Shown here one piece after another: positions 2,791-27,184 of a DNA stretch of 64,000 nucleotides. The notes beneath the pieces were generated by a model. It was not told where the DNA came from. It did not search any database and saw only the letters and a program-made list of their open reading frames with translations. Made by a program: the position numbers and the translations under genes. Within the stretch, counting starts at the first letter, position 1; each line of letters begins with the position of its first letter. Source of the DNA: Microbulbifer sp. HZ11 (GTDB lineage: Bacteria > Pseudomonadota > Gammaproteobacteria > Pseudomonadales > Cellvibrionaceae). The stretch is from the NCBI RefSeq assembly GCF_000708675.1, contig NZ_JELR01000002.1, positions 1,566,228 through 1,630,227 of the forward strand. The letters run 5' to 3'.

Positions 2791-2884
2791 CCGGGTACGG
2801 CCTTGCGAGACACGCCGTGAACCCATCCATGGGGGCTCTTCCGCGAGGTCCCTCTCGCAGAAGGTCTCGCAAGGCCGTACCCGG
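2791..2884 (+). repeat. Structured intergenic repeat, copy A
   Basis: Perfect 21-bp inverted arms (2791-2811 and 2864-2884) enclose a 52-base interior with the conserved core GTGAACCCATCC (2816-2827) followed by ATGGGGGCTC. A second small hairpin, GCGAG/CTCGC, lies at about 2843-2858. Partial further pairing extends outside the arms. The arms differ from those of copies C and D but share ACCGGGT-type sequence with B. It sits between gshA and acpH, both transcribed on the minus strand, so it is read as antisense to the core in that transcript. It lacks a terminal U-run, so it is not a standard terminator. Confidence 0.85.
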
Positions 2885-2906
2885 CATCAGCACCTGCGCT
2901 TCGACC

Positions 2907-4514
2907 TCAGAGCCCCTTCTGGCAGAACACATATTGCGCGTAATACTTGCCGAGAAAGTCTTCGAAGCTGCCGGTATCGGCGTCTTCTACCTGTTTTTGC
3001 TTGTCGAGTGACTCTTTTGCGAGGCGCTCGAAATCCGCCTGCTCTTCCTCGTTCAGCGGGCGGTCCAGGAAATACTGGCGGTGCTGTTCCGCTTTGGCCT
3101 TGGCCCACTGGAAGAAGGTTTGGTTGTGCTCGTGCATCTCCGCGAGCATTTGTGCAGCCGGGGTGGGTGCTTTGCCGTCGACCTTGTCACGCTGTGCGGA
3201 GACGGCGCGCTGGTAGTCGTGGCTGTCCCACGCCTGGTCAAGCAGTTCGGCCATGGGGGTGATCTGATCGAGGAGTTCACCGGCCCAGTCGGTAAGTTTG
3301 CGCTCGCTGCCGTTGTGGATAAGTTGCAGATCGGGCTCGCGGCCGCGGTCGACGATGCGGGTCTGGTTTTCCTGTACCGCGCGGTAGTCGGCTTCATCGG
3401 TTACCGGGCTTTCGCTCAGCAGGCAGTGCAGCAGGAAGGCGTCGAGGAAGCGCATTTGCGGGGCTTCGATACCGAGCGGGACGAAGGGGTTCAGGTCGAG
3501 GCAGCGCACTTCGATATATTCGACACCGCGGGCGTCGAGGGCGGAGAGTGCGGTTTCGCCCATGCCGGCCGGGTTTTTCGGGCGGATCGGGGAGTAGAAC
3601 TCGTTTTCGATCTGCAGCAGGCCAGTGGAGAGCTGCTGGTATTCGCCATTCGCGTCTTTCACACCCTGCTGGTGGTACTCCGGGTAAGGCTTGCTGATGG
3701 CTGCGCAGAGGGTAGACAGGTAAGTCTGCAGATCGTTGTAACACACGATCAGGGACTTCTGTGCGTCGCTGGTATAGCCGAGGCCGCCCATGCGCAGGGA
3801 GGTGGCCTGGGGGGCATACAGGGTGCGGCCATCGCCATCGAAGGACTGCAGCTGGTGTTCGCGATTCTGCACGAAGGTGCCGCACACGGCGGGGGCGGCA
3901 CCAAACAGGTAGATCAGCAGCCAGTAGTGGCGGCGGAAGTTGCGGATCAGGTCGAAATAGCGGCGGGTTTTGAAGTCTTTCAGGGACTCTTCCTGGCCGC
4001 CTGTATCGCTACCGCGCTCTTTTTCCTGCAGCCAGCTCCAGAAGGCGTCCGGCAGGGAAAAGTTGTAGTGGATACCTGCGATGGTCTGCATGGCGCGGCC
4101 GTAGCGCAGGCCCAGTCCGAGCCGGTAGATGGTCTTCATGGTGCCGCTGTTGGAGCTACCATAGCGGGCCACGGGAATGTCTTCATCGCGGCCGAGTTTG
4201 CCGGGCATGCTGTTTACCCACAGGCGCTCGTCGCCGATCTGACTGTAGGTGTAGCGGTGGATCTGGTCCAGTGTTTCCAGCGCCTGCTCCGGTGTTGCCA
4301 CCGGCGGCGTAATGAATTCCAGCAGGGCTTCGGAGAAGTCGGTGGTGATGTACTCGTGGGTGAGCGCGGAGCCGAGGCCGATCGGGTGATCGGTCTGCGC
4401 CAGCTCACCTTCCGCGGAGACCCGCAGGCCCTCTTTCTCAATGCCGCGGCGGATGCCCTTTAACAGCGCTAAACCTTGCGGCTGGGCCAGATCGGCCAGA
4501 TCGAGTTTGGACAA
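2907..4514 (-). CDS. gshA: Glutamate--cysteine ligase GshA
   Basis: A 535-residue enzyme making gamma-glutamylcysteine, the first step of glutathione synthesis, in the cytosol. The N-terminal LLKGIRRGIEKEGLRV, ITTDFSEALLEFITPP, SMPGKLGRDEDIPVARYGSSNSGTMKTIYR-type region and YIEVRCLDLNPFVPLGI are diagnostic for the gammaproteobacterial type-1 GshA. Length is close to E. coli (518). The start is a TTG at 4512-4514 preceded by a strong AGGAGA at the right distance; no ATG fits as well. It stands alone, with the structured repeat copy A downstream. A long open frame on the opposite strand across this gene is a codon-bias shadow. Confidence 0.95.
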   Translation of the reverse strand: MSKLDLADLAQPQGLALLKGIRRGIEKEGLRVSAEGELAQTDHPIGLGSALTHEYITTDFSEALLEFITPPVATPEQALETLDQIHRYTYSQIGDERLWVNSMPGKLGRDEDIPVARYGSSNSGTMKTIYRLGLGLRYGRAMQTIAGIHYNFSLPDAFWSWLQEKERGSDTGGQEESLKDFKTRRYFDLIRNFRRHYWLLIYLFGAAPAVCGTFVQNREHQLQSFDGDGRTLYAPQATSLRMGGLGYTSDAQKSLIVCYNDLQTYLSTLCAAISKPYPEYHQQGVKDANGEYQQLSTGLLQIENEFYSPIRPKNPAGMGETALSALDARGVEYIEVRCLDLNPFVPLGIEAPQMRFLDAFLLHCLLSESPVTDEADYRAVQENQTRIVDRGREPDLQLIHNGSERKLTDWAGELLDQITPMAELLDQAWDSHDYQRAVSAQRDKVDGKAPTPAAQMLAEMHEHNQTFFQWAKAKAEQHRQYFLDRPLNEEEQADFERLAKESLDKQKQVEDADTGSFEDFLGKYYAQYVFCQKGL

Positions 4515-4696
4515 GGGAATCTCCTGTGGCAGCCGGTTGGCTGATGGGCCGGGTGCGCCACCGGGACGCGGTACTTCTTACTCACAAAAAACGTCAATCA
4601 CCAAAATGGCGATCCGGCCTAAATGGGGGCGCCTGCTGCTATCTCAAGTAAGTGGGCTCAGTAAACAAGCTCAAGAGTAGGCTCAAGGCAGGTCTG

Positions 4697-5071
4697 TCAG
4701 GGGCTCGGGAGCGGTTGGTCGGGCTGGCTCTCTGCTGCCTCGGTTTGCGGCAGCTTTTCGGGCTCGGCGACGTCATTCGCTTCCGCGACAATTTCGGGCT
4801 CATCCACTGCTTCTTCTGGCACCGCTGACTCAAGCGGTGTCTCGCTCAGGGCTTCTTCCGGGACGATGGGCTGGCGCTTGGTGTCCAGCTCGCACTCCAG
4901 CAGCTCAATGCGCAGGGCGACGTTGCGAGTATTGGCCTCGAACATCTGATTGATGGCGACGTCCTTGTGTTCGGTGCGGAACAGCTTGGTGTTCTCGCGG
5001 CCGTCGATCCATTCGTTGCTTTTGCTTAAAAACTGCTGGTGCTGATTGGTCAGCACATAGACGTGGCTCAT
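4697..5071 (-). CDS. Small uncharacterised protein with acidic, Pro/Glu-rich tail
   Basis: A 124-residue protein. The first 65 residues (MSHVYVLTNQHQQFLSK, then DGREN, LFRTEHKDVAINQMFEANTRNV and IELLECELD) look folded and conserved in style. They read like a short beta-rich domain shared by marine gammaproteobacteria and pseudomonads, but I cannot name it. The last 60 residues are low complexity and acidic (PEEALSE, EEAVDEPEIVAE, PQTEAAESQPDQP), probably disordered. No signal peptide or membrane segment. The ATG at 5069-5071 was chosen; an in-frame TTG at 5083 would add four residues. Neither has a strong ribosome site. Same strand as gshA, 180 bases upstream of it. Confidence 0.6.
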   Translation of the reverse strand: MSHVYVLTNQHQQFLSKSNEWIDGRENTKLFRTEHKDVAINQMFEANTRNVALRIELLECELDTKRQPIVPEEALSETPLESAVPEEAVDEPEIVAEANDVAEPEKLPQTEAAESQPDQPLPSP

Positions 5072-5171
5072 GCGGGGGGACAACTTTGCTCAGACATGGA
5101 ACGCAGTTTAGCGGCGGTGGGAGGGAGGCTCAAGGCTGGCGGGATATGTGGTTCTGTTAAGGACTAGAGGC

Positions 5172-5284
5172 GGCGGTGCTACCGGGTGCAACCTTGCCAG
5201 ACACACCGTGAACCCATCCCTGGGGGCTCTGCAAAAACATCCTGTTTTTGAAGGTCTGACAAGGTTGCACCCGGTAGCACCGCC
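5172..5284 (+). repeat. Structured intergenic repeat, copy B
   Basis: Inverted arms of 31 bp (5172-5202 and 5254-5284) with one mismatch enclose a 51-base interior. The interior has the shared core GTGAACCCATCC followed by CTGGGGGCTC, then a second hairpin, CAAAAACA/TGTTTTTG, around a short TCC-type loop at about 5231-5249. The inner hairpin sequence has nothing in common with that of copy A, yet occupies the same place. It lies between the malic enzyme gene and the small gene at 4697, both minus strand, in the same orientation relative to them as copy A is to its neighbours. Confidence 0.85.
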
Positions 5285-5329
5285 TTCGCCCGAAGCGACA
5301 GCCTTGATCTGGTCGGTGGGGGAACGTAG

Positions 5330-6583
5330 TTACACCGGCTTCAACGGATAGTGCGCCGGATACGGCAAGCGCGCCGCGCCGCTGTCCACCGCCGCGCGGG
5401 CCACTGCCGCCGCCACTTCCGGCAGCAGGCGCGGATCTGTGGGCTTGGGCAGGATGTACTCGGCCCCAAAGCTCATTTCCACACCGCCGTAACCCGCGCG
5501 CACCGCCTCCGGCACCTCCTCGCGGGCTAGCTTGCGGATCGCCTCGATGGCGGCGAGCTTCATGTCTTCGTTGATGCGCGTGGCGCGTACATCCAGGGCA
5601 CCGCGGAAAATAAACGGAAAGCACAGCACGTTGTTCACCTGGTTCGGGTAGTCCGAACGGCCGGTGGCCATGATCAGGTCTTTGCGGGTCTGGTGCGCCA
5701 GCTCCGGGGAGATTTCCGGGTTGGGGTTGGAGCAGGCGAATACCACCGGCTTGTCCGCCATATGTGCCAGTTGCTCCGCTGATAACAGGTCCGGGCCAGA
5801 CACGCCGAGGAATACATCGGCGCCCTCGATGGCATCATCCAGAGTGCGCATCTCGGTATCCCGCGCCCACTCACCCTTGTAAGCGTTGATATCACTGCGC
5901 CCGGAGTGAATGACCCCGCGGCTGTCCAGCATGGTGATCTGGTCTTTCTTGGCGCCGGCGGCCAGCAGCAGTTTGCAGCAGGCAGTTGCGGCGGCACCGG
6001 CACCCAGGCACACGATACGCACGTCTTCGATCTGCTTACCCTGGATTTCCAGCGCATTCAGCATTCCCGCCACGGTCACGATCGCCGTGCCGTGCTGGTC
6101 GTCGTGGAACACCGGTACCGAGCAGCGCTGGATCAGCGCCTCTTCGATGTGGAAACACTCCGGGGCCTTGATGTCTTCGAGATTGATACCGCCGAAGGTA
6201 TTGGCAATCGCCGCGACGGTCTCAATAAACCGCTCGGGGCTGGGGCATTCCACCTCGATATCCACGGAGTTGATATCCGCAAAGCGCTTGAACAGCAGGG
6301 ACTTGCCTTCCATCACCGGCTTGGAGGCCAGTGGGCCCAGGTTGCCGAGGCCGAGGATGGCACTGCCGTTGGAGATGACCGCGACCAGATTGCCCTTGCC
6401 GGTATACAGGTAGGCGGCCTCCGGGTCCTTGGCGATTTCGCGCACCGGTTCGGCCACGCCCGGGCTATAGGCCAGGGACAGATCCTCCTGGGTGTGGGCA
6501 GGGGTCGTGAGTTCCACCGAAAGTTTGCCCGGTGTCGGCAAGGCGTGGTAATCGAGCGCGGCCTGGCGCAGTGAGTCGGTCAT
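5330..6583 (-). CDS. Short malic enzyme (MaeB-type catalytic core)
   Basis: A 417-residue oxidative decarboxylase converting malate to pyruvate with reduction of NAD(P). The N-terminus has YHALPTPGKLSV and LAYSPGVAEPVREIA. The catalytic part has FADINSVDIEVECPSPERFI, LEDIKAPECFHIEE and VFHDDQHGTA for divalent metal and malate. The Rossmann domain has VCLGAGAAATACCKLL, then FACSNPNPEISPE and YPNQVNNVLCFPFIFRGALD. It ends where the catalytic core ends, lacking the phosphotransacetylase-like domain of E. coli MaeB (759 residues). The same short form occurs next to rpmE-priA in Pseudomonas. A second, unrelated-length malic enzyme lies at 43678. Start ATG 6581-6583 has a weak ribosome site. Confidence 0.9.
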   Translation of the reverse strand: MTDSLRQAALDYHALPTPGKLSVELTTPAHTQEDLSLAYSPGVAEPVREIAKDPEAAYLYTGKGNLVAVISNGSAILGLGNLGPLASKPVMEGKSLLFKRFADINSVDIEVECPSPERFIETVAAIANTFGGINLEDIKAPECFHIEEALIQRCSVPVFHDDQHGTAIVTVAGMLNALEIQGKQIEDVRIVCLGAGAAATACCKLLLAAGAKKDQITMLDSRGVIHSGRSDINAYKGEWARDTEMRTLDDAIEGADVFLGVSGPDLLSAEQLAHMADKPVVFACSNPNPEISPELAHQTRKDLIMATGRSDYPNQVNNVLCFPFIFRGALDVRATRINEDMKLAAIEAIRKLAREEVPEAVRAGYGGVEMSFGAEYILPKPTDPRLLPEVAAAVARAAVDSGAARLPYPAHYPLKPV

Positions 6584-7048
6584 CAGGATGTCATCTCTTG
6601 GTTTGGAAAGCGGCCAACATTCTGCGGTTGGCGGCAGGTTACAGCGGACGTATTGATTTTATTGTGGGTCTGCAGGCTCGCCTCTCAAGCGAGAGCGACG
6701 CCGTGGCAGGAAGGATAACCGAGACCGCGGAAAATCCACAAGCTCAAAAAAACAGCGGTACGAAATACCTGTACTAAATATGCTGTAAAATCTTCTTAAT
6801 GGTGCATTTATTTATGTAGTTTAATTACATAATTAGGATGGACTTGCGGTTCTCCGGGTTGCCGTTTGCCGGTCTGTTCTTTTGCGCGCATTGCCAATAG
6901 GCCTTTTGTTGTGGCCAGAATCCAGTGCCCTGCCCCTAGATGCAGTGCTGATTTTCCCCTTCTCTGCGCGACGCCGGCCTTCATTCTTCTGTCATCCGCT
7001 GACGTTAGGGTCATGGACGCTCAATTCCTTCACCATGGCTAATCAAAA
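6584..7048. other. Divergent intergenic region, malic enzyme / cytochrome
   Basis: 465 bases without a convincing gene. The half nearest the malic enzyme is GC-rich like the coding sequence, with a small CTCTC/GAGAG inverted repeat near 6682-6695. From about 6765 to 6840 the sequence turns AT-rich and holds the palindrome described at 6812-6832, the likely promoter area. An open frame at 6808-7014 on the minus strand has no domain features, is basic and low quality, and is not annotated. Confidence 0.6.
6812..6832. promoter_or_regulatory. Operator-like palindrome TTATGTA-N7-TACATAA
   Basis: A perfect 7-bp inverted repeat, TTATGTA and TACATAA, separated by seven AT-rich bases, in the most AT-rich stretch of the divergent region. 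It is about 215 bases upstream of the cytochrome gene start and 230 from the malic enzyme start. Size and symmetry fit a dimeric repressor or activator site; the cognate regulator is unknown. Confidence 0.4.
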
Positions 7049-8704
7049 ATGTCGTTCTCTTACATTTTCCGCCGGGCTTGCTGGAGCCTCGCTGGTCTGC
7101 TTCTGGCCGGCTGCGGGCAGGACGCTGCGGAACTCGCTCACGATTTGGATACGGCGGCTCTGTTGCCGGCCGTCCCTCTGGCTGCGCGCCTGCCGGAAAC
7201 CGGTACCCACGAAGCCAACCCGGAGGCGCCAGTGCCGCCCATGTGTTACACCAAGACAGAGGGGCGACATAACCCCTGTTATGTGTGTCACCAGCTGTAC
7301 GAGCGGGATCCTCAGCAACCGCGCATGAATATGCTGGATGACGGGGGGATTCAGGGGAATTACCTCTTTTCTGATGAAGGCCTGAAAAATCACTGGGCAA
7401 ACCTGTTTGTAGATCGCAGCGACTGGCTGCAACAGGTGAGTGACGATGCCATCGTCGACTACATCAATCAGGACAACTACAGTGCCTTGCCGCAGCGATT
7501 GAGAGCGCAAGGCTGGAAGGGTTTCATTCCGGATCTTGCGGATTTCGATCAGGCTGCGGCGGCATTCGATGCGCAGGGTTTTGCCCGTGATGGCAGCGGT
7601 TGGGTAGCCTTCAATTACAAGCCGTTGCCGAGCACCTTCTGGCCGACCAATGGCAATACCGACGATGTGGCCATCCGGCTGCCACGAGAGTTTCAGCGGA
7701 TTGAGGGAGAGAACTCACGGGAAATCTACCTGCTGAACCTGGCGCTGGCAGAACTCAATATCAAACAGCTGCCACGCATGCCCATTGCGGCGATGGATGA
7801 GCGTCTGGTGGATCGGGACCTGGACGGAGACGGAGCGCTGCGAGGGGATACGCGCTGGCTGGCTCCGCAATCCCACTACTTTGGCGATGCTGCCGCGGTC
7901 GCGGTGGTGGATCAGCAATTCCCCAAAGGGACCGAATTCATCCACTCCGTGCGCTACGTGGGGGTGGATGAGGCGGGCAATATTGGCGTGCCCGCGCGCA
8001 TGAAAGAACTGCGCTATATGAAGAAGATTCGCGAGCTCACGGTCACCGACCTGGATAACCGTTACCGCACCGAGCGCAAGGAAAAGGTGCTCGGTGAGTT
8101 GCCCTACTATGTGGATCATGGCGATAAGGGCCGGGAAAACGGTATGGGCTGGCTGCTCACTGGCTTTATCGAAGACTACGATGGCCATCTGCGCCCGCAA
8201 AACCGCGAAGAGATGCTGTTCTGTATGGGGTGTCATGCGGCGATCGGCACAACCATCGATCAGACCTTCTCGTTCTCGCGCAAGGTCACCGGCCCACAGG
8301 GCTGGGGCTACATTAACCTGCGGGGCATGCCGGACGTACCCAACGTCAATCAACAGGAAGGTGAAATCCTCCAGTATCTGAAGCGCGCCGGCGGCGGCAG
8401 CGAGTTCCGGGAAAACCCTGAAATGCTCGACCGCTGGTACAACGAAGATGGCTCGGTGAAAGAAGCGGAAGTAAAGGCCGCAGACGTCTACACACTGATT
8501 ACACCATCGCGGGAGCGCGCACTGGCCATGAACAAGGCCTATACCCATATTGTTCGCCACCAGAGCTACGTGCAGGGGCGCGATGCCAGCTGGTTGCCCG
8601 CGCAGAATGTTCTGCAGCAGATTGACGACGCCACGCCACCCCTGCAGGCGGAGCACCGCTTCTTCGGCTGGGATATGCGCTTGCGCTGGGCGCAGGCGGA
8701 ATAG
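7049..8704 (+). CDS. Secreted diheme cytochrome c-type lipoprotein
   Basis: A 551-residue protein with a lipoprotein signal (LAGC, acyl-Cys at residue 22) and two haem c attachment sites, CYVCH at residues 77-81 and CMGCH at 392-396. They are more than 300 residues apart, so this is not a tandem class I diheme cytochrome. Between them is a Trp-, Asp- and Arg-rich region (WLAPQSHYFGDAAAVAVVDQQF, FIHSVRYVGVDE) that I do not recognise as a named domain. The product should be anchored to an envelope membrane, facing the periplasm or outside. It is followed 165 bases later by a PhoX-like lipoprotein, a likely functional partner. The substrate is unknown; electron transfer or peroxidase-like work is possible. 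Confidence 0.75.
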   Translation: MSFSYIFRRACWSLAGLLLAGCGQDAAELAHDLDTAALLPAVPLAARLPETGTHEANPEAPVPPMCYTKTEGRHNPCYVCHQLYERDPQQPRMNMLDDGGIQGNYLFSDEGLKNHWANLFVDRSDWLQQVSDDAIVDYINQDNYSALPQRLRAQGWKGFIPDLADFDQAAAAFDAQGFARDGSGWVAFNYKPLPSTFWPTNGNTDDVAIRLPREFQRIEGENSREIYLLNLALAELNIKQLPRMPIAAMDERLVDRDLDGDGALRGDTRWLAPQSHYFGDAAAVAVVDQQFPKGTEFIHSVRYVGVDEAGNIGVPARMKELRYMKKIRELTVTDLDNRYRTERKEKVLGELPYYVDHGDKGRENGMGWLLTGFIEDYDGHLRPQNREEMLFCMGCHAAIGTTIDQTFSFSRKVTGPQGWGYINLRGMPDVPNVNQQEGEILQYLKRAGGGSEFRENPEMLDRWYNEDGSVKEAEVKAADVYTLITPSRERALAMNKAYTHIVRHQSYVQGRDASWLPAQNVLQQIDDATPPLQAEHRFFGWDMRLRWAQAE

Positions 8705-8869
8705 TAGTACTGGTAATTATTTTTATTGAGGGTAAAACGTTAGCAATAAAATTCCCCAAAAATCGTCACTGAATGATCGCCAATTCTTCATGGCAGATGT
8801 GGATCCTTGGTCTAAGCGCCGCCGTTCTGGTTGGCGCTTTCTATTTTTGCATTCCACGGGGGCAAGACC

Positions 8870-10621: not shown

Positions 10622-10656
10622 GTCGTTTCCCGCTACGGGTACGCTGTATCCTGGAG

Positions 10657-10685
10657 CCCGCGGCGCTGTGCGTCGCGGGTTTTTT
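10657..10685 (+). terminator. Intrinsic terminator after PhoX-like gene
   Basis: A nine-pair GC-rich stem (CCCGCGGCG with CGTCGCGGG, one G-U pair) and a five-base loop are followed directly by six T. It is 36 bases after the stop codon of the PhoX-like gene and six bases before the convergent nuclease stop. Confidence 0.85.
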
Positions 10686-10690
10686 GCTAC

Positions 10691-11524: not shown

Positions 11525-11553
11525 ACCGGAGCGGGTCTCGATTGCGCGATCTC

Positions 11554-11766: not shown

Positions 11767-11912
11767 GATGGCCTCTAATCGATACCGCCACCCAGTCGTT
11801 TGCTGAGCACGGGATCGTCATTGGTGTAGGGGAAGCTTCCCCGGGCTGTTTAAAAAGTCGGCGCATACTATCAGATTAGCCCGCCGATTCAAGCGCAAAT
11901 GCGGCTATAGGG

Positions 11913-15942: not shown

Positions 15943-16019
15943 TGTCCAATAGCGAACGTTGAAATCCGCCCTCATCGACCACACTTAGTGCACTCGAATT
16001 GAAAAACACCGAGGCACAC

Positions 16020-16559
16020 GTGGAACAATATCGCGGCACTACCATTCTCTCCTGTCGCCGAAACGGCAAAGTCGTCATCGGCGGTGACGGGCAAGTCTCC
16101 ATGGGCAACACCATCATGAAAGGCAACGCCCGCAAGGTCCGCCGCCTGTACAACGACAAAGTCATCGCCGGATTCGCCGGCGGTACCGCCGACGCCTTCA
16201 CCCTGTTCGAGCGCTTCGAAGCCAAACTCCAGGCCCACAACGGCCAGCTCACCCGCGCTGCCGTCGAACTCGCCAAAGACTGGCGCACCGACCGCGCCCT
16301 GCGCCGGCTAGAGGCGCTCCTCGCCGTCGCCGACGAAACCGCCAGCCTGATCGTCACCGGCAACGGCGACGTGATCCAGCCGGAAGACGACCTCATCGCC
16401 ATCGGCTCCGGCGGCCCCTTCGCCCAGTCCGCGGCGCGCGCGCTGCTCGACAATACCGAACTGGATGCGAGAACGATTGTGGAGCAGGGATTGAAGATTG
16501 CCGGTGACATCTGTGTGTACACCAACCACAACAACACCGTTGAAGAGTTGAGTTACTGA
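16020..16559 (+). CDS. hslV: ATP-dependent protease subunit HslV
   Basis: A 179-residue proteasome-like peptidase that forms the HslUV chamber. The core [49 protein letters not shown] and [25 protein letters not shown] is near invariant in the family. The catalytic N-terminal Thr is in [11 protein letters not shown]; here it is preceded by VEQYRG rather than by Met alone, so a six- or seven-residue propeptide must be removed. GTG 16020-16022, with GAGG six bases upstream, was chosen over TTG 15999. A structured repeat (copy D) separates it from hslU by 213 bases. Confidence 0.95.
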
Positions 16560-16597
16560 TCGCAAACCAGCAACGAAGTAATTCACCACGAACTGAA

Positions 16598-16708
16598 GGC
16601 GGGGTACCGGGTACTGTTTTTTGAAAGCGTCAGCGACAGGAGGTCGCTGCCGCAGCGCCCAGGGATGGGTTCACAGCGGTTTCAAAAAACAGTACCCGGT
16701 GCCCCGCC
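16598..16708 (-). repeat. Structured intergenic repeat, copy D, inside hslV-hslU
   Basis: Arms 16598-16626 and 16680-16708 pair over 29 bp; the single non-Watson-Crick position is a G-U pair in RNA. The interior carries the core reversed: on the minus strand GTGAACCCATCC then CTGGGCGCT, followed by an inner hairpin CAGCGAC/GTCGCTG with a five-base loop. The arms share no sequence with copy C. Unlike A and B it lies within what is normally a tight two-gene operon, where a long stem should affect transcript processing or the HslV:HslU ratio. Confidence 0.85.
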
Positions 16709-16772
16709 GCCACCGCGCCAGCGATAGAACTTTCGAGGCTGGAACGAAGCGAAAAGAATCCGAGTAAAGACC

Positions 16773-18086
16773 ATGTCCATGACCCCTAGAGAAATCGTCC
16801 ACGAACTCGACCGCCATATTGTCGGCCAGAACGACGCCAAGCGCGCCGTTGCCATCGCCCTGCGCAATCGCTGGCGCCGCATGCAGGTCAACGAAGAGCT
16901 GCGCGCGGAAATCACCCCGAAAAATATCCTGATGATCGGTCCTACCGGCGTCGGTAAAACCGAAATCGCCCGCCGCCTCGCCAAGCTTGCCGGCGCGCCG
17001 TTTATCAAAGTCGAAGCCACCAAATTCACCGAAGTCGGTTACGTCGGCCGCGATGTGGAATCCATCGTCCGCGACCTCGTCGAAATGGCCATCAAGCTCG
17101 AACGCGAGCGCGCCACCGAAGGCGTCAAACAGCGCGCCATGGACGCCGCCGAAGACCGTGTCCTCGACGCCCTGCTGCCGCCGGCACGCAACACCGACCC
17201 CAGTGAGAAAGATTCCAGTACCCGCCAGGTCTTCCGCAAAAAACTGCGCGAAGGCGAGCTGAACGACAAAGAAATCGAAATCGAAGTCTCCGCCGGTCCA
17301 ATGGGTGTGGAAATCATGGCGCCCCCCGGCATGGAGGAAATGACCAATCAGCTGCAGGGCATGTTCTCCAATATGTCCAAGGGCAAAACACAAAAGCGTA
17401 AACTCACCGTCAAGCAGGCGCTCAAACAGCTGACCGACGATGAAGCCGCCAAGCTGATCAACGACGAAGAAATCAAAACCAAAGCGATCCAGTCTGCCGA
17501 GCAGAACGGTATCGTATTTATCGATGAAATAGACAAAGTGGCCAAACGCCAGGAAAGCGGCGGTGCCGACGTATCCCGTGAAGGCGTACAGCGCGATCTG
17601 CTGCCACTGATTGAAGGCTGCACCGTCACCACCAAATACGGCATGCTCAAAACAGACCACATCCTGTTTATCGCCTCAGGGGCCTTCCATTTGTCCAAAC
17701 CCTCCGACCTGATACCAGAGCTGCAGGGTCGTTTACCAATTCGTGTGGAGCTGAGCTCACTCACCTCCAAAGACTTCCAGCGTATCCTGACCGAACCCAG
17801 CGGATCGCTTACCGAGCAGCAGAAAGCACTGTTGGGCACCGAAGGTGTCAATCTGGAATTTGCCGACGACGGCATCCAGCGTATCGCCGAAGTGGCGTTT
17901 GAGGTGAATGAGTCCACCGAGAATATCGGCGCCCGCCGTCTGCACACCGTACTGGAAAGGCTGCTGGAAGAAGTTTCCTTTGCCGGTGGTGATGGCGATA
18001 CCGCGATCACCATTGATGCAGCCTATGTGGACAAGCAATTGGGCGAGCTCAGCAAAGACGAAGACCTCTCGCGCTTTATTCTCTGA
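16773..18086 (+). CDS. hslU: HslU, AAA+ ATPase of the HslUV protease
   Basis: A 437-residue unfoldase that feeds HslV. Features in order: [17 protein letters not shown], Walker [18 protein letters not shown], the pore-loop region [15 protein letters not shown], the intermediate domain (residues about 110-235, charged helices [27 protein letters not shown]), Walker [14 protein letters not shown], the sensor region [22 protein letters not shown], and the C-terminal DLSRFIL tail, which docks into HslV. All conserved residues appear present and length matches E. coli (443). An internal Met two codons after the first ATG is an alternative start. Probably co-transcribed with hslV through repeat D. 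Confidence 0.96.
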
Positions 18087-18125: not shown

Positions 18126-18152
18126 TCAAACGCGATTCCCCGGAATACCCCA

Positions 18153-18530: not shown

Positions 18531-18633
18531 ATCCGAAGCAAATCTGACGCATATTTCCGGTATCCTCCCACCCCAATCACCCGGCCACGCCGGAGAGGTA
18601 TCACTCATTAAATTGCTACTGGGGGGATCACTC

Positions 18634-20238: not shown

Positions 20239-20800
20239 TTGGCAGCGTTTGAAAGGTAGGAGTTGACTTCGAGTCGATGTGGTCCAGCACATTTTCCCGT
20301 GCCCCTCATATTAGCTTGATCTTCTGCCTTATTCTTTTACGTGTCTATTGGAGTATCCCGGTCGGGCAGCGAAGCCAGTTTCGGCGTGTTTCAAAAACGG
20401 TTGCAGCCGATGCCGTGATGTTTTGCTGAAACGATGGGTCATGGGTTTGAGTGGTTTTTTGTGCCTACTTTTTCGCTATTTAAGTTTTTTATCTTGATAT
20501 TTTGCAAAACTATGGTTTTTTAGTTTGCCATTGGGGTTGGTTAATAATTGCTCGACAGGCCAAATCTCCAGATAAGGATGTCCGTCCCAACTATTATACT
20601 TTTGATGTTATATGTTCTCTTTTTGGTGGGCTTTTTAAGTATGAATAGCTCGACTTCAAAATGAGTAGAGCACTTTCGTTATTTATTATTCGGTCGTCAA
20701 AAAATATATATGAGGGGTTAGGGAGGTTAGTCGTCAAACTTTTGTAGCGAAATCTTTCGCTACAAAATACTGACAAGAGCCTAATTGGGGGGCTAACCAA
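20239..20800. other. AT-rich intergenic/promoter region before TonB receptor
   Basis: 562 bases with markedly lower GC than the surroundings and no credible gene. It contains TTTTGCAAAA (20500-20509), a direct repeat GTCGTCAAA (20693-20701 and 20730-20738), and a 13-bp inverted repeat at 20740-20767 near the receptor start. The long AT-rich leader suggests a regulated promoter with upstream binding sites. A 68-codon minus-strand frame at 20594-20800 has no supporting features and covers the regulatory repeats, so it is not called. Confidence 0.6.
20740..20767. promoter_or_regulatory. 13-bp inverted repeat upstream of TonB receptor
   Basis: TTTTGTAGCGAAA and its exact complement are separated by two bases, ending 33 bases before the receptor start codon. 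As DNA it is a long symmetric operator; as RNA it would be a 5' UTR hairpin next to the GGGGGG ribosome site. It is palindromic enough to act either way. Confidence 0.55.
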
Positions 20801-23800
20801 TTGAATAAATTAAAAAAAATGTTCGAGAGCGCAGGGACTCCGCTCAAGGTAAGCGTGTCCACTGCTGTGCTGGCAGCAGTACTTTCTCCTATTACTTTCG
20901 CACAAGAAGATGACGCCTCTGTTACTGAAACTAACGTAGTCGCCGAACAGCAGCCTGCTGTTCCCGTTCCTCAGGGAGTGGAAGACGATTCGGGGGTAGA
21001 AGAGGTCGTCGTTACCGGCTCTCGTCTGAAACGAGACACATTTTCAAGCATTGCACCTCTACAGATAATTAACGCCGAGGGGGCACGAGAGGCTGGTGCC
21101 ATCGATACCTCCACCATTCTGCAGAGCAGTGGTGCGGCTTCTGGCCAGCAGATTGATCTGACCTTTTCTGGTTACGTTTTGGATAATGGCCCTGGTGCTT
21201 CAACCGTAGACCTGCGTGGTCTGGGTGCTGGTCGTACCCTGGTACTGTTGAACGGGCGTCGCCTTTCACCAGCAGGTGTTGAAGGTGCGCCAGTCGCTGC
21301 AGACCTGAACCTTATCCCCTCCTCGCTGGTACAGCAGTATGACCTGCTGCTGGACGGAGCATCCTCCATTTACGGCTCCGACGCCGTAGCCGGTGTAACC
21401 AACATCATCCTGAAGAAAGACTTTGACGGTTTCGATTTCGAAGTCTTTGGTACTGGCCCTACACAGGGCAATGGTGAAGAAACCACTATGAGCCTGAGTT
21501 GGGGTCAGAATTTTGACCGCGGCTTTATTGGTGTGGGTGCGGAATACTATCAGGCACAGGCAGTGACTCTGGCCGATCGCGAGTGGACTGACAGCTGTGC
21601 GCGCAACCGCGAAATCGGCACCGACGGCAAGATCTACACCCAGGATGCCTACTACAGCAATGTGCTGGGTATGGATACCTCTGATGGTTGTGCCATCGGC
21701 TCACTGGCTGGCCGAGTATCCACCCCAGTATCCGGTAGCATCTACTACACACCGGGGAATGGTCACGGCGGTTGGAGTGACTTTTCTGAGTCCAACCTTT
21801 TTGGCTTCGGAGTTGATGCGGATGGTGACGGTGTAACCGATGTGAACTTCCGCAATCACGATATCAATGGCCGTGATCTGTTTGCACATTTGTACCCAGA
21901 GCAAGAACGCACGAGCATCATGACCTTTGGTGAGTACACTTTTGAAGGCGACATGAACCTAACTCCGTTCTTTGAAGCCAGTTACGCCAAACGTGAAAAC
22001 TATATCGATAGTGGCGCATTCCAGCTGTTCCCGTCTGTGCCAGGTTCCAACCCATTCAACATTTGTAACCCAGATGGAGTTCGTGGCGTCGATTGTGGCT
22101 TGGCCTACGATGCCCTGCTGGATGACCCAGAGTTTCAAGAGCAGTTTTATAATACCTATGGGGCTCTGCCAGCAGACTACGATCTTTACTACGGAGCTAT
22201 TGGCCCCCAAAGTACCCAGCCGATTGTTTCGGTGCGAGGTGATCGTACTACCGCAGATGTAGAAGTAGCGCAGATGCGCTTCGTCACCGGTATGCGCGGC
22301 GACCTGCCGATGCTGAATATCGGTTCTATGTCTGACTGGAGCTTTGAACTGTCCGGATCCATTACCAAATCTGAAGGTAAATCCAGCCGCTACGGGATTC
22401 GCGGTGACCGCCTGACCCAGTCTCTGGCGACCACTGTTGAGGATCCGAATAATCCGGGTACCTACACCTGTGAACCGCTTCCGGGCGAGTCTACCTGTGT
22501 GCCGATCGATATGTTCGCGGCTTCTCTGTATGAAGGCGTCATTGGTGACTTCGCCACCCAAGCGGAACGCGATTACCTGTTCGACAGCCGCGACTTTGAC
22601 ACCTCTTACTACCAGACGATCTTCTCCGCATATACCACCGGTACCGTGGCAACCTTGCCTGCAGGTGACGTAATTGTTGGTTTCGGTGCTGAGCTGCGCA
22701 ATGACCGTATCAAGTCTCTGCCGGACGATATCGCCCGCGATGGCCTGTTCTTCGGTTACTTCTCTGATGGTGGCGCGACCGGTAGTAAGGACACCAAAGA
22801 GGCATTTGCTGAGATTGAAATCCCACTGCTCGCAGGTAAATTCATGGCAGAAGAGTTGACCACTAACGTGTCTGCTCGGTATACCAAGGATGAGTTCTAC
22901 GGTGGCGCTTGGACCAATGCCGCGAAGATTGCCTATCGTCCGGTAGAGTCACTGCTGCTGCGATCAACTTACGGTACCTCCTACCGTGCGCCCAACTTGC
23001 GTGAAAACTTCCTGATGAATCAGACCGGTTTCAATAATATTTTTGACCCGTGCATGATTCCGGATGCAGCCCTGGATCCGATCAGTGGTGGATATAACGC
23101 GGACTTGGATACCCGTAGCCCCGAAGTTCTGTCCAACTGTCTCGCCAATGGTGTAGATCCCACCACTCTCGAGAACGATGGTTTTAACACCTACAGTGTT
23201 GAAGTGGCTCGCGGCGGTAACCTGGACTTGGAGGAAGAGACCTCTGAATCTTTCACTTTTGGTTTCTCTTTCGAGCAGCCGTTCTTTGAGAGTTTTGGTC
23301 TGACTCTGGGTATGACCTACTACGAAATCGATATCGAGAATTCGATCATCGAGCCGTCCGCCCAATTTCTTGTAAATGACTGTTTCAATAACCCGAATGG
23401 CAACAGCGCATTTTGTTCCATGTTCTCTCGTGATGATGAAGGCTTCCTGGATGTTATCGATGCGGCCTTTGTTAACCGCGATAACGAAGTGGCTCGTGGT
23501 TTCGACTACAACATTCGTTACGAGCAGCCGGTTACCGTATTCGGTGCGCCGGTAGACCTGTCTGCAAACCTGACCTTCAACCGCGTGATGGAACGCACCC
23601 TGACCTATGTAGCCGACGACGGTACCCCAGATGTCGAGCGGTATCAGGGCACCTTCGGCTTCCCCGAGTGGAACGGTCGTGGTGAATTCCGCGCGGAATA
23701 CGATAACTACCGCTTTACCTGGACTACCCAGTACCTGGGTGCTGTGGAGCAGGCGGACGAGTACATCGACGAGTTCAGTGATATCTATGACACCAATGGG

Positions 23801-24073
23801 ACGGGCGAATTCTCCGATACCTGTGTCGGTGCTGCGAACGGTGGCGTTGATTGTCGCGACGTTGGTTTTGCTGACGACTATATGATCCACCACGCGTCCC
23901 TGTACTATTACGCAGATACTTGGACTGCTGGTCTTGGTGTGCGGAACGTCTTCAACGAAGCGCCTCCGCAGGTAGATGGCAACGAAGTAACCGCTATCAA
24001 CAACACCCCGATCGGTTACGGCTACGATCTGCAAGGCCGCACGGTCTTCATGAACCTTCAGAAGAACTTCTGA
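20801..24073 (+). CDS. TonB-dependent outer-membrane receptor
   Basis: A 1090-residue receptor with a signal peptide (VSVSTAVLAAVLSPITFAQ) and an acidic linker. A TonB box-like EEVVVTGSRLKRD comes first. The plug domain has PLQIINAEGAREAGAIDTSTILQSS, ASTVDLRGLGAGRTLVLLNGRRL and DLLLDGASSIYGSDAVAGVTNIILKKDFDG. The 22-strand barrel ends in the outer-membrane signature VFMNLQKNF. It is of the long type (about 1000 residues) common for peptide or glycan uptake in marine bacteria. The start is a TTG at 20801 with a GGGGGG ribosome site eight bases upstream; ATG 20819 is possible but would clip the basic n-region. A secreted S9 peptidase follows, suggesting oligopeptide substrates (inference). Confidence 0.92.
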   Translation: MNKLKKMFESAGTPLKVSVSTAVLAAVLSPITFAQEDDASVTETNVVAEQQPAVPVPQGVEDDSGVEEVVVTGSRLKRDTFSSIAPLQIINAEGAREAGAIDTSTILQSSGAASGQQIDLTFSGYVLDNGPGASTVDLRGLGAGRTLVLLNGRRLSPAGVEGAPVAADLNLIPSSLVQQYDLLLDGASSIYGSDAVAGVTNIILKKDFDGFDFEVFGTGPTQGNGEETTMSLSWGQNFDRGFIGVGAEYYQAQAVTLADREWTDSCARNREIGTDGKIYTQDAYYSNVLGMDTSDGCAIGSLAGRVSTPVSGSIYYTPGNGHGGWSDFSESNLFGFGVDADGDGVTDVNFRNHDINGRDLFAHLYPEQERTSIMTFGEYTFEGDMNLTPFFEASYAKRENYIDSGAFQLFPSVPGSNPFNICNPDGVRGVDCGLAYDALLDDPEFQEQFYNTYGALPADYDLYYGAIGPQSTQPIVSVRGDRTTADVEVAQMRFVTGMRGDLPMLNIGSMSDWSFELSGSITKSEGKSSRYGIRGDRLTQSLATTVEDPNNPGTYTCEPLPGESTCVPIDMFAASLYEGVIGDFATQAERDYLFDSRDFDTSYYQTIFSAYTTGTVATLPAGDVIVGFGAELRNDRIKSLPDDIARDGLFFGYFSDGGATGSKDTKEAFAEIEIPLLAGKFMAEELTTNVSARYTKDEFYGGAWTNAAKIAYRPVESLLLRSTYGTSYRAPNLRENFLMNQTGFNNIFDPCMIPDAALDPISGGYNADLDTRSPEVLSNCLANGVDPTTLENDGFNTYSVEVARGGNLDLEEETSESFTFGFSFEQPFFESFGLTLGMTYYEIDIENSIIEPSAQFLVNDCFNNPNGNSAFCSMFSRDDEGFLDVIDAAFVNRDNEVARGFDYNIRYEQPVTVFGAPVDLSANLTFNRVMERTLTYVADDGTPDVERYQGTFGFPEWNGRGEFRAEYDNYRFTWTTQYLGAVEQADEYIDEFSDIYDTNGTGEFSDTCVGAANGGVDCRDVGFADDYMIHHASLYYYADTWTAGLGVRNVFNEAPPQVDGNEVTAINNTPIGYGYDLQGRTVFMNLQKNF

Positions 24074-24088
24074 TCGCTCACAGGTCGG

Positions 24089-24120
24089 AAAAAGCCCGCA
24101 GTTACTGCGGGCTTTTTTTT
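24089..24120 (+). terminator. Intrinsic terminator after TonB receptor
   Basis: A 13-bp perfect stem (AAAAAGCCCGCAG and its complement) with a TTA loop is followed by a total of eight T. It begins 16 bases after the receptor stop codon. The S9 peptidase gene beyond it therefore likely depends on partial read-through or its own promoter in the 44 bases left. Confidence 0.92.
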
Positions 24121-24163
24121 CCAGGGAAATTAGGTAATAGCAGAAAAAATAGCGGAATCTGAA

Positions 24164-26116
24164 ATGAAAATAATCAAAGGTCTGGCCGTGGTGCTGACGA
24201 TGATCGTCGCAACACAGGTGATCGCCAAAGAAGCTAAGCCCTATCCTCTGGATTTTTGGGCACTTCGCGATGTGATCAGTAATGTCTCTATCTCTCCAGA
24301 TGGCAAGCATCTGGCTTTGTTGAAAATCCCTACTAAAGATGGCGACCCAATAATCGAAGTCTACCCCGCCGGGGATCTCGAAGCAGAGCCCTACCGCATA
24401 AATTCCGACCCGATGGAAATCCAGCAGTTTTTCTGGTTGAGTAATGATGTGATCGGCATGCAATTACGCCAGAAAGTGCGCGACAAAATCGAGGGTTTCA
24501 ACGAAGGTGTTTACGAATATCTACTTGCGTCAGTGGATATCAAACGCAAGAAACTGAAAAAGTATGATCAGGCCGGTGCCGAACTGGATCACCCCCTGCC
24601 CAACAATGATCGTCGGATTATTTTCTCATATCTACCTGGTGGTGAGAAAAGCCGAATTGCTGCTGCATTCCGTCCGCGTACTTATTACGAACTGGATCTA
24701 AAAAGCGGTGCCAAGAAGCTGCTGCTGCGCGGCAAACTGGCGATGGGGCAGGTCGAGTTCGACGAAACCGGTAACCCATGGCTGGCACGTGGATTCGATG
24801 TCGCCAAAGGTGAGTATGTCTGGTACGAACGCATCACCGATAAAAAGCGATGGACCGAATTCCACCGCATGAGCGAAGACAGTTTTGAAACATTTTCCGT
24901 AAAGGGCTTCGACACCCAAAATCCGAACATTTTCTTTGTTACTGCCAATAATGGTAATGACAAGGTCGGTCTATGGGAGTTTGACGTCAAAGCCAAAAAA
25001 TTTGGCGAGTTAGTCTATCTCCGAACCGATGTAGATGTGAGCGGAGTGCGAAAGCATAGCAACAGCTGGAGATATCGCGATCAGATCGTAGGCGTTGTAT
25101 ACGCGGAAAAAAATGTCGAAGTAGAATATTTTGACGAAGTTGAAATGGCGACGCAGCGTCAGTTAGAGCAAGTGATTCCAAATGCGCACTATCTGCGAAT
25201 CAATAGCCGCTCCCGCGACGGTGCAACCATGACCATCTACAATGTCGGTCCGCGGGATCCCGGCAGCTATTACCTGTTGCACAAGGGCAAGCTGACAAAA
25301 GTCGGTAGCCGCCAGCCCCTGCTGGAACCGGAAAAGCTCGCCGATGTACGCTACATCAAATATAAATCCCGCGACGGCCGCACTATTCCGGCCTATCTGA
25401 CGGTACCCAATGGTGAGCCGCCCTTCCCGGCGATTGTCCTGCCGCACGGTGGTCCGTTTGTTTCAGAGCTGGTGATCTACGATGAGTGGGCACAGTTCCT
25501 GGCGAACAATGGTTACTTGGTACTGCAGCCGCAGTATCGTGGCTCCAAAGGCCTGGGCATTGAGCACTACACGTCCGCCTTTAAAGAAGGCGGTCAAGGT
25601 GGCTATAAGATGCAGGACGACAAGGACGACGGGATGCTCTACCTGGTGGAGCAGGGTTTGGCAGAAAAGGATCGGCTAGCCATGTTCGGCTGGTCATACG
25701 GTGGCTACGCCGCCCTTGTGGCTGCCGCCCGTGAAGACCAGATTTACCAATGCGTGATCGCTGGTGCAGCTGTGTCAGATAACCAGATGCAAGTGAATTA
25801 CTATCGTGATCGTCTGCGTGGTGCCGGTAAAATCGAGCAGCTCGGTATGTGGGATGACAGTATCTCGCCGATTGAGCAGGCAGCCAAAGTCAATGTGCCT
25901 ATCCTATTGATTCACGGAAGTGTAGATCAGCGTGTCCCTCCAGAGCACGCTGAGCGATACAGAAAGGCACTTGATGAAAACGGCAAGGTCTACAAATACG
26001 TAGAGCTGGATGGCGCTGATCACTTCAGCAACACCCTGTTTTATGATCACCAGAAGACTCTTTATGAGTCCATGATCTCGTATCTTGCTTCTGATTGTGG
26101 GCCTGACGGCCTCTAA
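24164..26116 (+). CDS. Secreted S9-family (DPP/acylaminoacyl-type) peptidase
   Basis: A 650-residue peptidase with a signal peptide (MKIIKGLAVVLTMIVATQVIA, then KEAKPYPLDFWALRDV). The N-terminal half is a beta-propeller of WD-like repeats. The C-terminal alpha/beta-hydrolase domain begins VRYIKYKSRDGRTIPAYLTVP. The catalytic triad is readable: Ser511 in GWSYGGYAALVAA, Asp588 in HGSVDQRVPPEHAERY, His620 in DGADHFSN. Activity is cleavage of short peptides in the periplasm. Its position right after a TonB-dependent receptor suggests processing of imported peptides. The family call is firm, the exact specificity unknown. Confidence 0.9.
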   Translation: MKIIKGLAVVLTMIVATQVIAKEAKPYPLDFWALRDVISNVSISPDGKHLALLKIPTKDGDPIIEVYPAGDLEAEPYRINSDPMEIQQFFWLSNDVIGMQLRQKVRDKIEGFNEGVYEYLLASVDIKRKKLKKYDQAGAELDHPLPNNDRRIIFSYLPGGEKSRIAAAFRPRTYYELDLKSGAKKLLLRGKLAMGQVEFDETGNPWLARGFDVAKGEYVWYERITDKKRWTEFHRMSEDSFETFSVKGFDTQNPNIFFVTANNGNDKVGLWEFDVKAKKFGELVYLRTDVDVSGVRKHSNSWRYRDQIVGVVYAEKNVEVEYFDEVEMATQRQLEQVIPNAHYLRINSRSRDGATMTIYNVGPRDPGSYYLLHKGKLTKVGSRQPLLEPEKLADVRYIKYKSRDGRTIPAYLTVPNGEPPFPAIVLPHGGPFVSELVIYDEWAQFLANNGYLVLQPQYRGSKGLGIEHYTSAFKEGGQGGYKMQDDKDDGMLYLVEQGLAEKDRLAMFGWSYGGYAALVAAAREDQIYQCVIAGAAVSDNQMQVNYYRDRLRGAGKIEQLGMWDDSISPIEQAAKVNVPILLIHGSVDQRVPPEHAERYRKALDENGKVYKYVELDGADHFSNTLFYDHQKTLYESMISYLASDCGPDGL

Positions 26117-26302
26117 TTGAAGAGCCGCTCCTCGGTCTATCTCGGCAGCGTCACTCACATCACTCGGACTTGAGTGGCGCTTGCTGCTTTCTCTCCCTCT
26201 GCATCTTCAATCCTCAAGCTCAGGCAACCCTTTGGCGTCACTCGTACCGTTTGCCGGTTCCCATGTACAATACGGTCCTGAATTAGGTACAGCAGGCTCA
26301 CA

Positions 26303-27052
26303 ATGACGGAACGCAAAACAACCCATTTCGGCTACCAGCAGGTGCCGGTGGAAGAGAAAGCCGGACGGGTGGCGGATGTTTTTCACTCGGTGGCGGCGCG
26401 CTACGATGTGATGAACGACCTGATGTCTGGGGGCATTCATCGCCTGTGGAAGCGTTTTACCATCGAGCTGTCCGCGGCGCGGCCCGGGCAGACGATTCTG
26501 GATATTGCCGGTGGTACCGGGGACCTGACGGCGCGCTTTTCCCGCATCGTGGGGCCGACGGGCAAGGTGGTGTTGGCGGATATCAATGCGTCGATGCTGA
26601 AGGTGGGCCGTGATCGCCTGCTGGACCGGGGCATTGCGGGCAATGTGGAGACGGTGCAGGCGGATGCCCAGTACCTGCCTTTCCCGGACAATACCTTTGA
26701 CTGCATTACCATTGCCTTCGGCCTGCGCAATGTGACGGATAAGGATCTGGCGCTGCGTTCGATGTTGCGGGTGCTGAAGCCCGGTGGCCGGCTGCTGGTG
26801 CTGGAGTTTTCCAAGCCGGAGTCGAAACTGCTGGAGAAGGTGTACGATCAGTATTCTTTCCGCCTGTTGCCGTTTATGGGCAAGCTGGTGGCGGACGATG
26901 CGGACAGTTACCGCTATCTCGCCGAGAGCATCCGTATGCACCCGGATCAGGAAACCCTGAAAGGCATGATGAGCGAGGCCGGTTTCGTGGACTGTGAGTT
27001 TCACAATATGACCGGTGGCATTGTGGCCCTGCACAAAGGCATCAAGCCCTAG
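26303..27052 (+). CDS. ubiE: Ubiquinone/menaquinone C-methyltransferase UbiE
   Basis: A 249-residue SAM-dependent methyltransferase acting on the quinone ring. Signatures: [40 protein letters not shown] loop [69 protein letters not shown], and a C-terminal [12 protein letters not shown]. Length equals E. coli UbiE (251). It heads the ubiE-ubiJ-ubiB group, as in Pseudomonas and E. coli, with structured repeat C between ubiE and ubiJ. The 187-base upstream gap is the likely promoter. Confidence 0.97.
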
Positions 27053-27075
27053 TTCTTAAGTTGATCTCGTGGCGG

Positions 27076-27184
27076 TGTGGCTGCCGGTGGACATTCGCGG
27101 GACACGCCGTGAACCCATCCATGGGGGCTCGGCTGCGGCCATCCAGGCCGCAGACGGTCCCGCGAATGTCCACCGGCAGCCACA
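27076..27184 (+). repeat. Structured intergenic repeat, copy C, between ubiE and ubiJ
   Basis: Arms 27076-27103 and 27157-27184 are a perfect 28-bp inverted repeat. The interior has the shared core GTGAACCCATCC followed by ATGGGGGCTC, then a second hairpin, CTGCGGCC/GGCCGCAG, around an ATCCA loop. Arm sequence is unlike copies A, B and D apart from a few bases next to the core. It lies between two same-strand genes that are normally co-transcribed, in the sense orientation. Confidence 0.88.

Follow-up and report, generated by a model that had tools for sequence, protein, structure and literature searches.

TwoAYGGAY (RF01731), a predicted CsrA binder (PMC4333381), consists of an outer stem and two adjacent hairpins with AYGGAY-type loops, and is presented in the accessible passages of Weinberg et al. 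2010 (PMC2864571) as a candidate RNA, not as a repeat family. GGA in hairpin loops also characterizes sRNAs of the CsrB/RsmZ type. According to the available part of PMC7652899, the CsrA site is an ANGGAN hexaloop, the SELEX consensus is RUACARGGAUGU and the CsrB repeat is CAGGA(U/A/C)G; SELEX ligands have mostly no more than 4 base pairs, and CsrB gathers many sites in one RNA, so that a single molecule binds roughly 18 CsrA subunits. The published distance over which CsrA bridges two sites is 10-63 nt, with an optimum above 18 nt. In Xanthomonas, the 3' UTR-derived RsmU binds and sequesters RsmA (accessible passages of PMC7694677). Abundant intergenic palindromic repeats are known from Yersinia as YPAL or RU-2; these are ~168 bp long, and their recent mobility was predicted from empty and filled sites (passages of PMC2229807; copy numbers are given in those of PMC2847712). 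The passages seen of these two papers make no mention of a link with CsrA. Here we analyse a repeat family that shares features with all of these systems, and its sequences suggest that the repeats are mobile elements whose folded RNA would bind CsrA.

The window, a stretch of 64,000 nucleotides from Microbulbifer sp. HZ11, contains four structured intergenic repeats that had been singled out in an initial annotation. All four were confirmed at their reported positions, and the 64-kb window holds exactly four perfect matches to their shared 12-base core. The elements are ~110-130 nt long, and on the strand that carries GGA in the hairpin loops (the GGA strand) they fold into a long outer stem leading to a three-way junction with two hairpins. 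Folding z-scores for A to D ranged from -7.1 to -11.2, and none of 200 dinucleotide shuffles folded as well. Neighbouring genes, identified by codon-scored ORF calling followed by Pfam matching, were on the same strand on both sides of each element, as had been claimed. The features are as follows, the strand of an element being that of its GGA (functional) strand, in whose orientation loop and tip sequences are given.

2152..2739, minus: ACP phosphodiesterase gene (PF04336), adjoining element A
2771..2904, minus: element A, full covariance-model match (145.3 bits, plus folding)
2814..2836, minus: element A hairpin 1 (the core), stem GCC/GGC, bulge GTGAA, stem CCC/GGG; loop AUGGAU (2825-2830)
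2838..2863, minus: element A hairpin 2; loop AGGGAC (2848-2853)
2907..4514, minus: glutamate-cysteine ligase gene (PF04262), adjoining element A
5162..5294, minus: element B, full model match (136.9 bits); its other neighbour, beside the malic enzyme gene, is a small ORF without Pfam match
5213..5224, minus: element B hairpin 1; loop AGGGAU (5216-5221)
5232..5250, minus: element B hairpin 2; tip CAGGAUG, the motif that recurs in CsrB according to the available part of PMC7652899
5330..6583, minus: malic enzyme gene (PF00390/PF03949), adjoining element B
15999..16559, plus: HslV-like gene (PF00227), upstream of element C
16588..16718, plus: element C, full model match, type II; GGA strand sense to the flanking HslV-like and HslU-like genes
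16631..16649, plus: element C hairpin 2; loop 16638-16642, AGGAG
16658..16669, plus: element C hairpin 1; loop 16661-16666, AGGGAU
16773..18086, plus: HslU-like AAA ATPase gene, downstream of element C
26303..27052, plus: UbiE gene (PF01209), upstream of element D
27064..27196, minus: element D, full model match; GGA strand antisense to the UbiE and SCP2-domain genes
27114..27125, minus: element D hairpin 1; loop AUGGAU (27117-27122)
27133..27153, minus: element D hairpin 2; loop UGGAU (27141-27145)
27227..27874, plus: SCP2-domain gene (PF02036), downstream of element D

The initial annotation knew of no described function for this architecture, which was too strong as a statement that nothing similar had been described: TwoAYGGAY has the same outer stem and pair of adjacent hairpins, and the model of Ysr224 (RF02770), a Yersinia sRNA, contains the same hairpin pair, seen on the TCC strand. 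The TwoAYGGAY model aligned to the elements over its full length and on the GGA strand, and all 15 of its hits in the genome at E<=10 were these elements, again on the GGA strand. The best copy scored 36.4 bits, below the gathering cut-off of 43 bits, which was passed in 3 of 40 related genomes, at loci that also match the element model R2. The Ysr224 model reached at most 33.3 bits on the elements against a cut-off of 70, and we guess that Ysr224 is itself a YPAL. The YPAL repeats resemble the elements in being abundant, intergenic, palindromic and predicted to be mobile, a likeness of description in the available passages. Unlike TwoAYGGAY as described, the elements are dispersed repeats that number 133 or more in a single genome, keep the twin sites at a near-fixed spacing and turn over between species. 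The family is thus a new form of a known RNA motif, dispersed and present in high copy number.

This copy number comes from the covariance model (140 rows minus 6 antisense duplicates and 1 partial match). The exact core followed by NTGG occurs 64 times in the genome, and the reversed control pattern not once. Matches were found in 77 of the 370 gammaproteobacterial genomes searched, own genome included. The exact core is absent from 12 of 24 other genomes of the same genus, so the family is dispensable, and viral contigs gave no exact match to a longer form of the core. Among the papers listed and passages covered by the literature searches, beyond whose reach most subscription papers lie, none described dispersed repeats with CsrA motifs; a search for the exact core on both strands returned papers that, by their titles, appear to contain it in primer tables.

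The arms had been proposed to covary under selection for structure, and this was borne out. Among 88 strong matches in other taxa the covariation score was 0.83, versus 0.18 in shuffles, and simple recent duplication is excluded; neither unpaired arms, nor a lack of covariation, nor identical arms in decay were observed. Arms do differ between copies in variable blocks, but these alternate with conserved blocks (GTGGCGG, CCGGGT, GCGAGAC), which qualifies the description of the arms as largely different. Mismatches in the arms are strongly asymmetric. On the GGA strand there are 149 G·U versus 18 A·C mismatches in own genome (109 of 119 copies) and 129 versus 47 in other taxa (116 of 127 copies). 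The constrained strand is therefore the opposite of the one on which the core had been read, and the latter was ruled out as the functional strand. By itself, the G·U bias cannot discriminate between RNA and single-stranded DNA.

Hairpin-templated gene conversion, by which a palindrome repairs itself, could also keep the arms complementary without the fold being under selection. Near-identical orthologues of 14 elements are in keeping with this, since their single changes comprised 13 G·U versus 7 A·C (p 0.26), a ratio that also counts against the RNA-fold explanation, and only one compensated pair was present among 679, paired changes occurring in more diverged orthologue pairs. However, such correction would be blind to strand, yet the standing mismatches are biased on one strand, and it would not retain GGA in loops carried by differing stems; we consider self-repair very improbable. 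Compensatory evolution in place was rejected because of the single compensated pair, and paired changes seem instead to arrive with the replacement of copies.

Conservation of the two inner hairpins centres on the loops. The reading of covarying stems had overlooked these A(N)GGA(N) hairpins, and with them the link to TwoAYGGAY and CsrA. Of 119 own copies, 111 have an A(N)GGA(N) loop on hairpin 1. The loop of hairpin 2 contains GGA in 106 of 115, across many different stems, part of these loops being one base shorter (AGGAN). In own copies, G is commoner than Y at the second loop position. The core had been taken as invariant, which proved an artefact of the search word: hairpin 1 stems differ among copies, with UAC/GUA replacing CCC/GGG in 19 of 111 copies whose hairpin 1 was recognised, and other stems being rare. 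In the 88 matches from other taxa, loops 2 and 1 contain GGA in 86 and 87 copies, and the closing pair is C-G in 85 of the 86 and all 88 of the 88 copies that have sequence there, respectively. As a control, ANGGAN was present in 5 of 150 hairpins outside the elements on either strand, versus 55 of 57 inside. The elements thus contain, by sequence, the ANGGAN hairpin loop closed by C-G that defines a CsrA/RsmA site, and the SELEX consensus is contained in the 7 copies whose hairpin 1 reads UAC-AGGGAU-GUA. In 104 of the 106 copies measured, 19-21 nt separate the two GGAs, a distance that falls within the published bridging range. Counting against the CsrA reading, hairpin 2 has up to 12 base pairs, unlike the short SELEX ligands. 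Moreover, an RsmU mutant in which all four GGAs had been changed to AAU still bound RsmA (accessible passages of PMC7694677), so GGA is only part of the story. ComEA, which was sought as a sign that RsmU belongs to the family, was not among the eight ORFs scanned beside Xanthomonas copies.

Each copy might act in cis within its mRNA, in stability, processing or attenuation, as proposed for YPAL and ERIC of Yersinia. Few copies lie in divergent promoter regions (5 of 115 versus 103 of 485 intergenic spaces >60 nt, p 3e-6), those in tandem contexts lie at a median of 41-67 nt past the upstream stop codon, and the long stems of the elements could serve as RNase III substrates, all of which would suit such a role. 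However, among tandem copies the GGA strand runs sense to the genes in 44 cases and antisense in 35 (p 0.37), and the loops and the G·U bias are preserved roughly equally well in antisense and sense copies, so a per-copy role in the host mRNA is unsupported. An apparent shortage of A·C mismatches in sense copies (1 versus 7, p 0.06) was not reproduced in another genome, G021 (7 versus 5; pooled p 0.35). At orthologous sites in related species the element may be missing, inverted or exchanged for another copy, which does not point to a gene-specific role, and we regard cis action as improbable. With no direction bias and about equal constraint in antisense copies, selection seems to act on the element lineage, i.e., on a mobile folded strand, and not on each copy in its host mRNA.

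The same observations would also fit a folded strand of single-stranded DNA. The family would then be REP- or MITE-like, and its transposase or recombinase would recognise the twin hairpins by contacts with their GGA loops, without any link to CsrA. Replication-strand bias is absent as well (46 versus 58, leading strand from local GC skew), and most close pairs share a single inverted arrangement (13 of 14; 16 of 19 when five copies from another model search are added), as in BIMEs. High copy number, extragenic position and GTGG at one end also recall REPs, GTGG being a degenerate form in some GTAG-tagged REPs according to the available text of PMC3733652. The elements differ from REPs and BIMEs in their three-way junction. 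The arms of REPs are conserved in sequence within a family, whereas those of the elements are variable. A search of the genome for Y1 transposases gave four hits, each ~8-21 kb away from the closest element among the copies listed, none of which has such a gene nearby. A transposase also gives no reason for two loops with the fixed and variable positions of a CsrA site, and TwoAYGGAY was judged to be probably RNA by its discoverers (table in PMC2864571). We see a DNA strand as a possible but doubtful explanation.

The reading that we favour, on about evenly balanced confidence, is that the repeats are dispersed and mobile and that they function as a folded single strand, which is most likely RNA and is predicted to act as a CsrA clamp. 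The 30 nt on either side gave no promoter-like or terminator-like signal in their consensus, nor did the consensus of 119 copies contain the conserved T-run after either end that marks an intrinsic terminator. Because the flanks revealed no conserved element-borne signal, we propose that the GGA strand is transcribed by read-through from the neighbouring gene. One CsrA/RsmA dimer could then clamp both hairpins, and each transcribed copy would be a small CsrA decoy that also tags its host transcript. The element lineage would have preserved the twin-hairpin fold across many rounds of spread and copy replacement. The inner module also differs between the copies of related species; element-free orthologous sites exist, with flanks too diverged to place ends or target duplications. 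Going further, and rather speculatively, the family might be a selfish element domesticated by, or parasitic on, the CsrA system, with more than 100 mobile clamps per genome forming a distributed chromosomal sponge whose size shifts as copies are gained and lost, and its spread might need the folded RNA, as in SINEs, or CsrA itself.

If the loops bind CsrA, two in each of 133 copies would amount to up to ~260 potential CsrA sites per genome, dispersed in contrast to those of CsrB, and the free level of a global regulator would depend on mobile elements. CsrA sites would then be supplied by repeats that are usually dismissed as intergenic clutter and that differ between sister species, and the orphan TwoAYGGAY motif would gain a testable function and a mode of spread. 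With respect to the protein, its co-occurrence with the elements speaks for the CsrA reading but is confounded by reduced genomes: csrA was missing from 45 of 293 genomes without a match, and was present in 76 of the 77 element-bearing genomes (all but G212; Fisher p 0.0003), own genome among them.

All four repeats that the initial annotation had placed in the window were present, as follows:

Element A, 2791-2884, repeat
Element B, 5172-5284, repeat
Element C, 16598-16708, repeat in reversed orientation
Element D, 27076-27184, repeat

Their fold z-scores against dinucleotide shuffles ranged from -7.1 to -11.2, and none of 200 shuffles did as well. The elements belong to a large family. In the 4.2 Mb of the Microbulbifer sp. 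HZ11 genome, the exact 12-base core followed by NTGG occurred 64 times and a reversed control pattern not once, and a covariance model of the family (R1, E<=1e-3) found at least 133 distinct copies, counted from 140 rows after removal of 6 antisense duplicates and 1 partial match, with 150 candidates scored. A separate model search added five more copies outside this count (L020, L032, L036, L056 and L058). By eye, without statistics, copies look denser at 1.38-1.91 Mb of C2 and 1.42-1.78 Mb of C1 than in the rest of these two large contigs.

On the strand opposite to the core, here called the GGA strand, the fold consists in order of an outer stem formed by the outer arms, hairpin 2, and the core-containing hairpin 1 with a UUCAC bulge. 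A first-pass search of 89 loci (E<=0.01) gave 129 rows, weak and antisense ones included. The alignment used for covariation contained 88 matches from other taxa, a selected set (72 of the 116 core-scan loci, E<=1e-9, with Microbulbifer and several weaker loci left out) that was fitted to the R1 structure; in it, 93.3% of cells were pairing versus 55.9% when shuffled, and the covariation score was 0.830 versus 0.179 shuffled and 0.09-0.12 with partners slid. Changes on both sides were seen in 43 of 46 pairs versus 41.4 in shuffles, a measure that adds little.

A palindrome mutating without constraint on one strand is expected to accumulate G·U and A·C mismatches about equally. Read on the GGA strand, the outer arms held 149 G·U versus 18 A·C mismatches in HZ11 (109 of 119 copies, the other 10 lacking an anchor or alignable arms) and 129 versus 47 in other taxa (116 of 127 copies, 11 with short arms being dropped); the binomial p-values, 7e-27 and 5e-10, are too small because copies share ancestry. 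Counted per copy, 72 leaned toward G·U and 2 the other way in HZ11, and 66 versus 16 did so in other taxa. The asymmetry thus indicates a constraint on one strand.

Gene context was taken from a codon-scored gene call for 115 copies, with 485 intergenic spaces longer than 60 nt as baseline. Only 3 of the 115 overlapped a predicted gene. Convergent spaces held 31 copies (65 of 485 in the baseline, p 0.001) and divergent spaces 5 (103 of 485, p 3e-6), while 79 copies lay between tandem genes, with the GGA strand sense in 44 and antisense in 35 (p 0.37). Replication-strand bias was absent (46 versus 58), and the flank consensus of the copies contained no promoter-like or terminator-like signal. 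On the GGA strand, 22 of 119 HZ11 copies are preceded by an ACGAAG hexamer, located 13-15 nt upstream of the element. G·U to A·C ratios were 49:7 antisense and 52:1 sense in HZ11, and 33:5 and 39:7 in the genome G021 (p 0.35, both genomes pooled), and loops and G·U bias were of similar quality in the two orientations. This independence from gene direction points to a constraint on the element lineage rather than on individual copies through the mRNA that contains them.

The loop of hairpin 1 reads A(N)GGA(N) in 111 of 119 copies, on stems that are nearly all CCC/GGG or UAC/GUA. Hairpin 2, on many different stems, carries GGA in its loop in 106 of 115 copies, and five of the nine exceptions contain a long insert. 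Among 88 copies from other taxa, loop 1 contained GGA in 87 and loop 2 in 86. As a control, hairpins with six-base loops in the same DNA were compared: inside elements 55 of 57 had an ANGGAN loop, outside them 5 of 150, with either strand counted. The published site of the RNA-binding regulator CsrA/RsmE is an ANGGAN hexaloop, with SELEX consensus RUACARGGAUGU and CsrB repeat CAGGA(U/A/C)G (PMC7652899), and by sequence the element loops match it. In 104 of 106 copies the two GGA motifs are separated by 19-21 nt, a distance within the published CsrA bridging range of 10-63 nt (optimum >18).

Taken together, the pair of CsrA-type hairpins, the distance between them and the constraint on a single strand are best read as an RNA clamped by CsrA, the binding being putative. 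A mobile element of the TwoAYGGAY type would then have a folded strand, most likely RNA, that binds CsrA, with transcription also putative. The chief alternative is an element of single-stranded DNA, with an enzyme that recognises these loops by coincidence.

The putative CsrA-bound RNA has a relative in Rfam. At gathering thresholds, Rfam gave no match in the window and none at the elements of 18 loci from other taxa, where a cobalamin riboswitch was found elsewhere. The TwoAYGGAY model (RF01731) at E<=10 gave 15 matches in the whole HZ11 genome, all full-length and on the GGA strand of elements, with a best score of 36.4 bits, under the cut-off of 43. One of 14 control genomes (Methanocaldococcus jannaschii) had a match, none above cut-off. 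Of 40 element-bearing genomes searched (from 77), 15 had a match at E<=0.01; loci above cut-off were present in 3, and one such locus from each of the three (L318-L320) also matches R2, a second family model, strongly at identical place and strand. The Yersinia sRNA model Ysr224 also contains this pair of hairpins, on the TCC strand; the elements score far under its cut-off. TwoAYGGAY was already matched to the CsrA motif and proposed as a CsrA-binding sRNA (PMC4333381). For TwoAYGGAY, architecture and CsrA idea are known; the portions of the literature searched described neither its occurrence as a dispersed high-copy repeat nor its strand asymmetry, its turnover or the nearly constant distance between the two GGA motifs.

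R2 (E<=1e-5) matched at least 77 of 370 gammaproteobacterial genomes, HZ11 included (at least 66 of 273 genera), with up to 9 candidates scored per genome in the rows listed. CsrA was encoded in 324 of the 370, namely in 76 of the 77 element-bearing genomes (all except G212) versus 248 of 293 others (lists compared by eye; Fisher p 0.0003), a co-occurrence confounded by small or incomplete genomes. An exact-core scan gave at least 116 stretches, in Stenotrophomonas, Xanthomonas, Halomonas, Marinobacter, Alteromonas, Shewanella and others; two rows named Paractinoplanes and Bacillus, perhaps through contamination or transfer. Closely similar copies occur in contigs named Microbulbifer. Since only 15 of 37 relatives other than HZ11 (12 of 24 within the genus) had the exact core, the family is patchy. 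In three Xanthomonas records (L139, L161 and L166) an element sits close to the 3' end of a gene for a 343-aa product; a scan of L139 and L161 identified this product as a KDPG aldolase-domain protein.

At the site of element A, the genomes G021, G018 and G001 have an element and several relatives short element-free spacers; at that of element B, the element of G001 is oriented as in HZ11, and those of G021 and G018 are reversed and have other arms. Of 116 HZ11 sites, 58 had an orthologous place in the G021 stretches; among these, 37 reached a coverage of 95% or more, of which 14 were near-identical, 18 had diverged and 5 differed greatly. Compensated double changes affected 1 of 679 pairs in the near-identical and 115 of 867 in the diverged group. 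At several of 13 sites inspected (e.g. 88, 95 and 99), the flanks align and the differences extend over the arms, hairpin 2 and the core alike, so copies seem to be replaced as whole units. Of 14 close pairs in the copy list, 13 share one inverted arrangement, as do 16 of 19 with the five further copies added.

Some copies carry inserts. A nested palindromic insert beginning GGCCGAAGGCGCCG occupies the hairpin-2 loop at C2:152051 (L018), C1:969579 (L272), C2:644873 (L256), C2:737372 (L255) and C2:1649023 (L241) of HZ11, and is a nested repeat that takes this loop as target. In L025, L041 and L054, hairpin 2 is separated from the arm by an insert of ~55 nt (TTTGGACGCC...GCGCCCGCAGGGTGAG...AATCAACG), and a GC-rich insert (CTAGGCG...CCCCCT type) adjoins the core bulge in L030, L034 and L035. 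In genome G015, the spacer at the site of element A (L224) has element-like outer hairpin ends but no inner junction, and may be either another type of repeat or a derivative formed by deletion.
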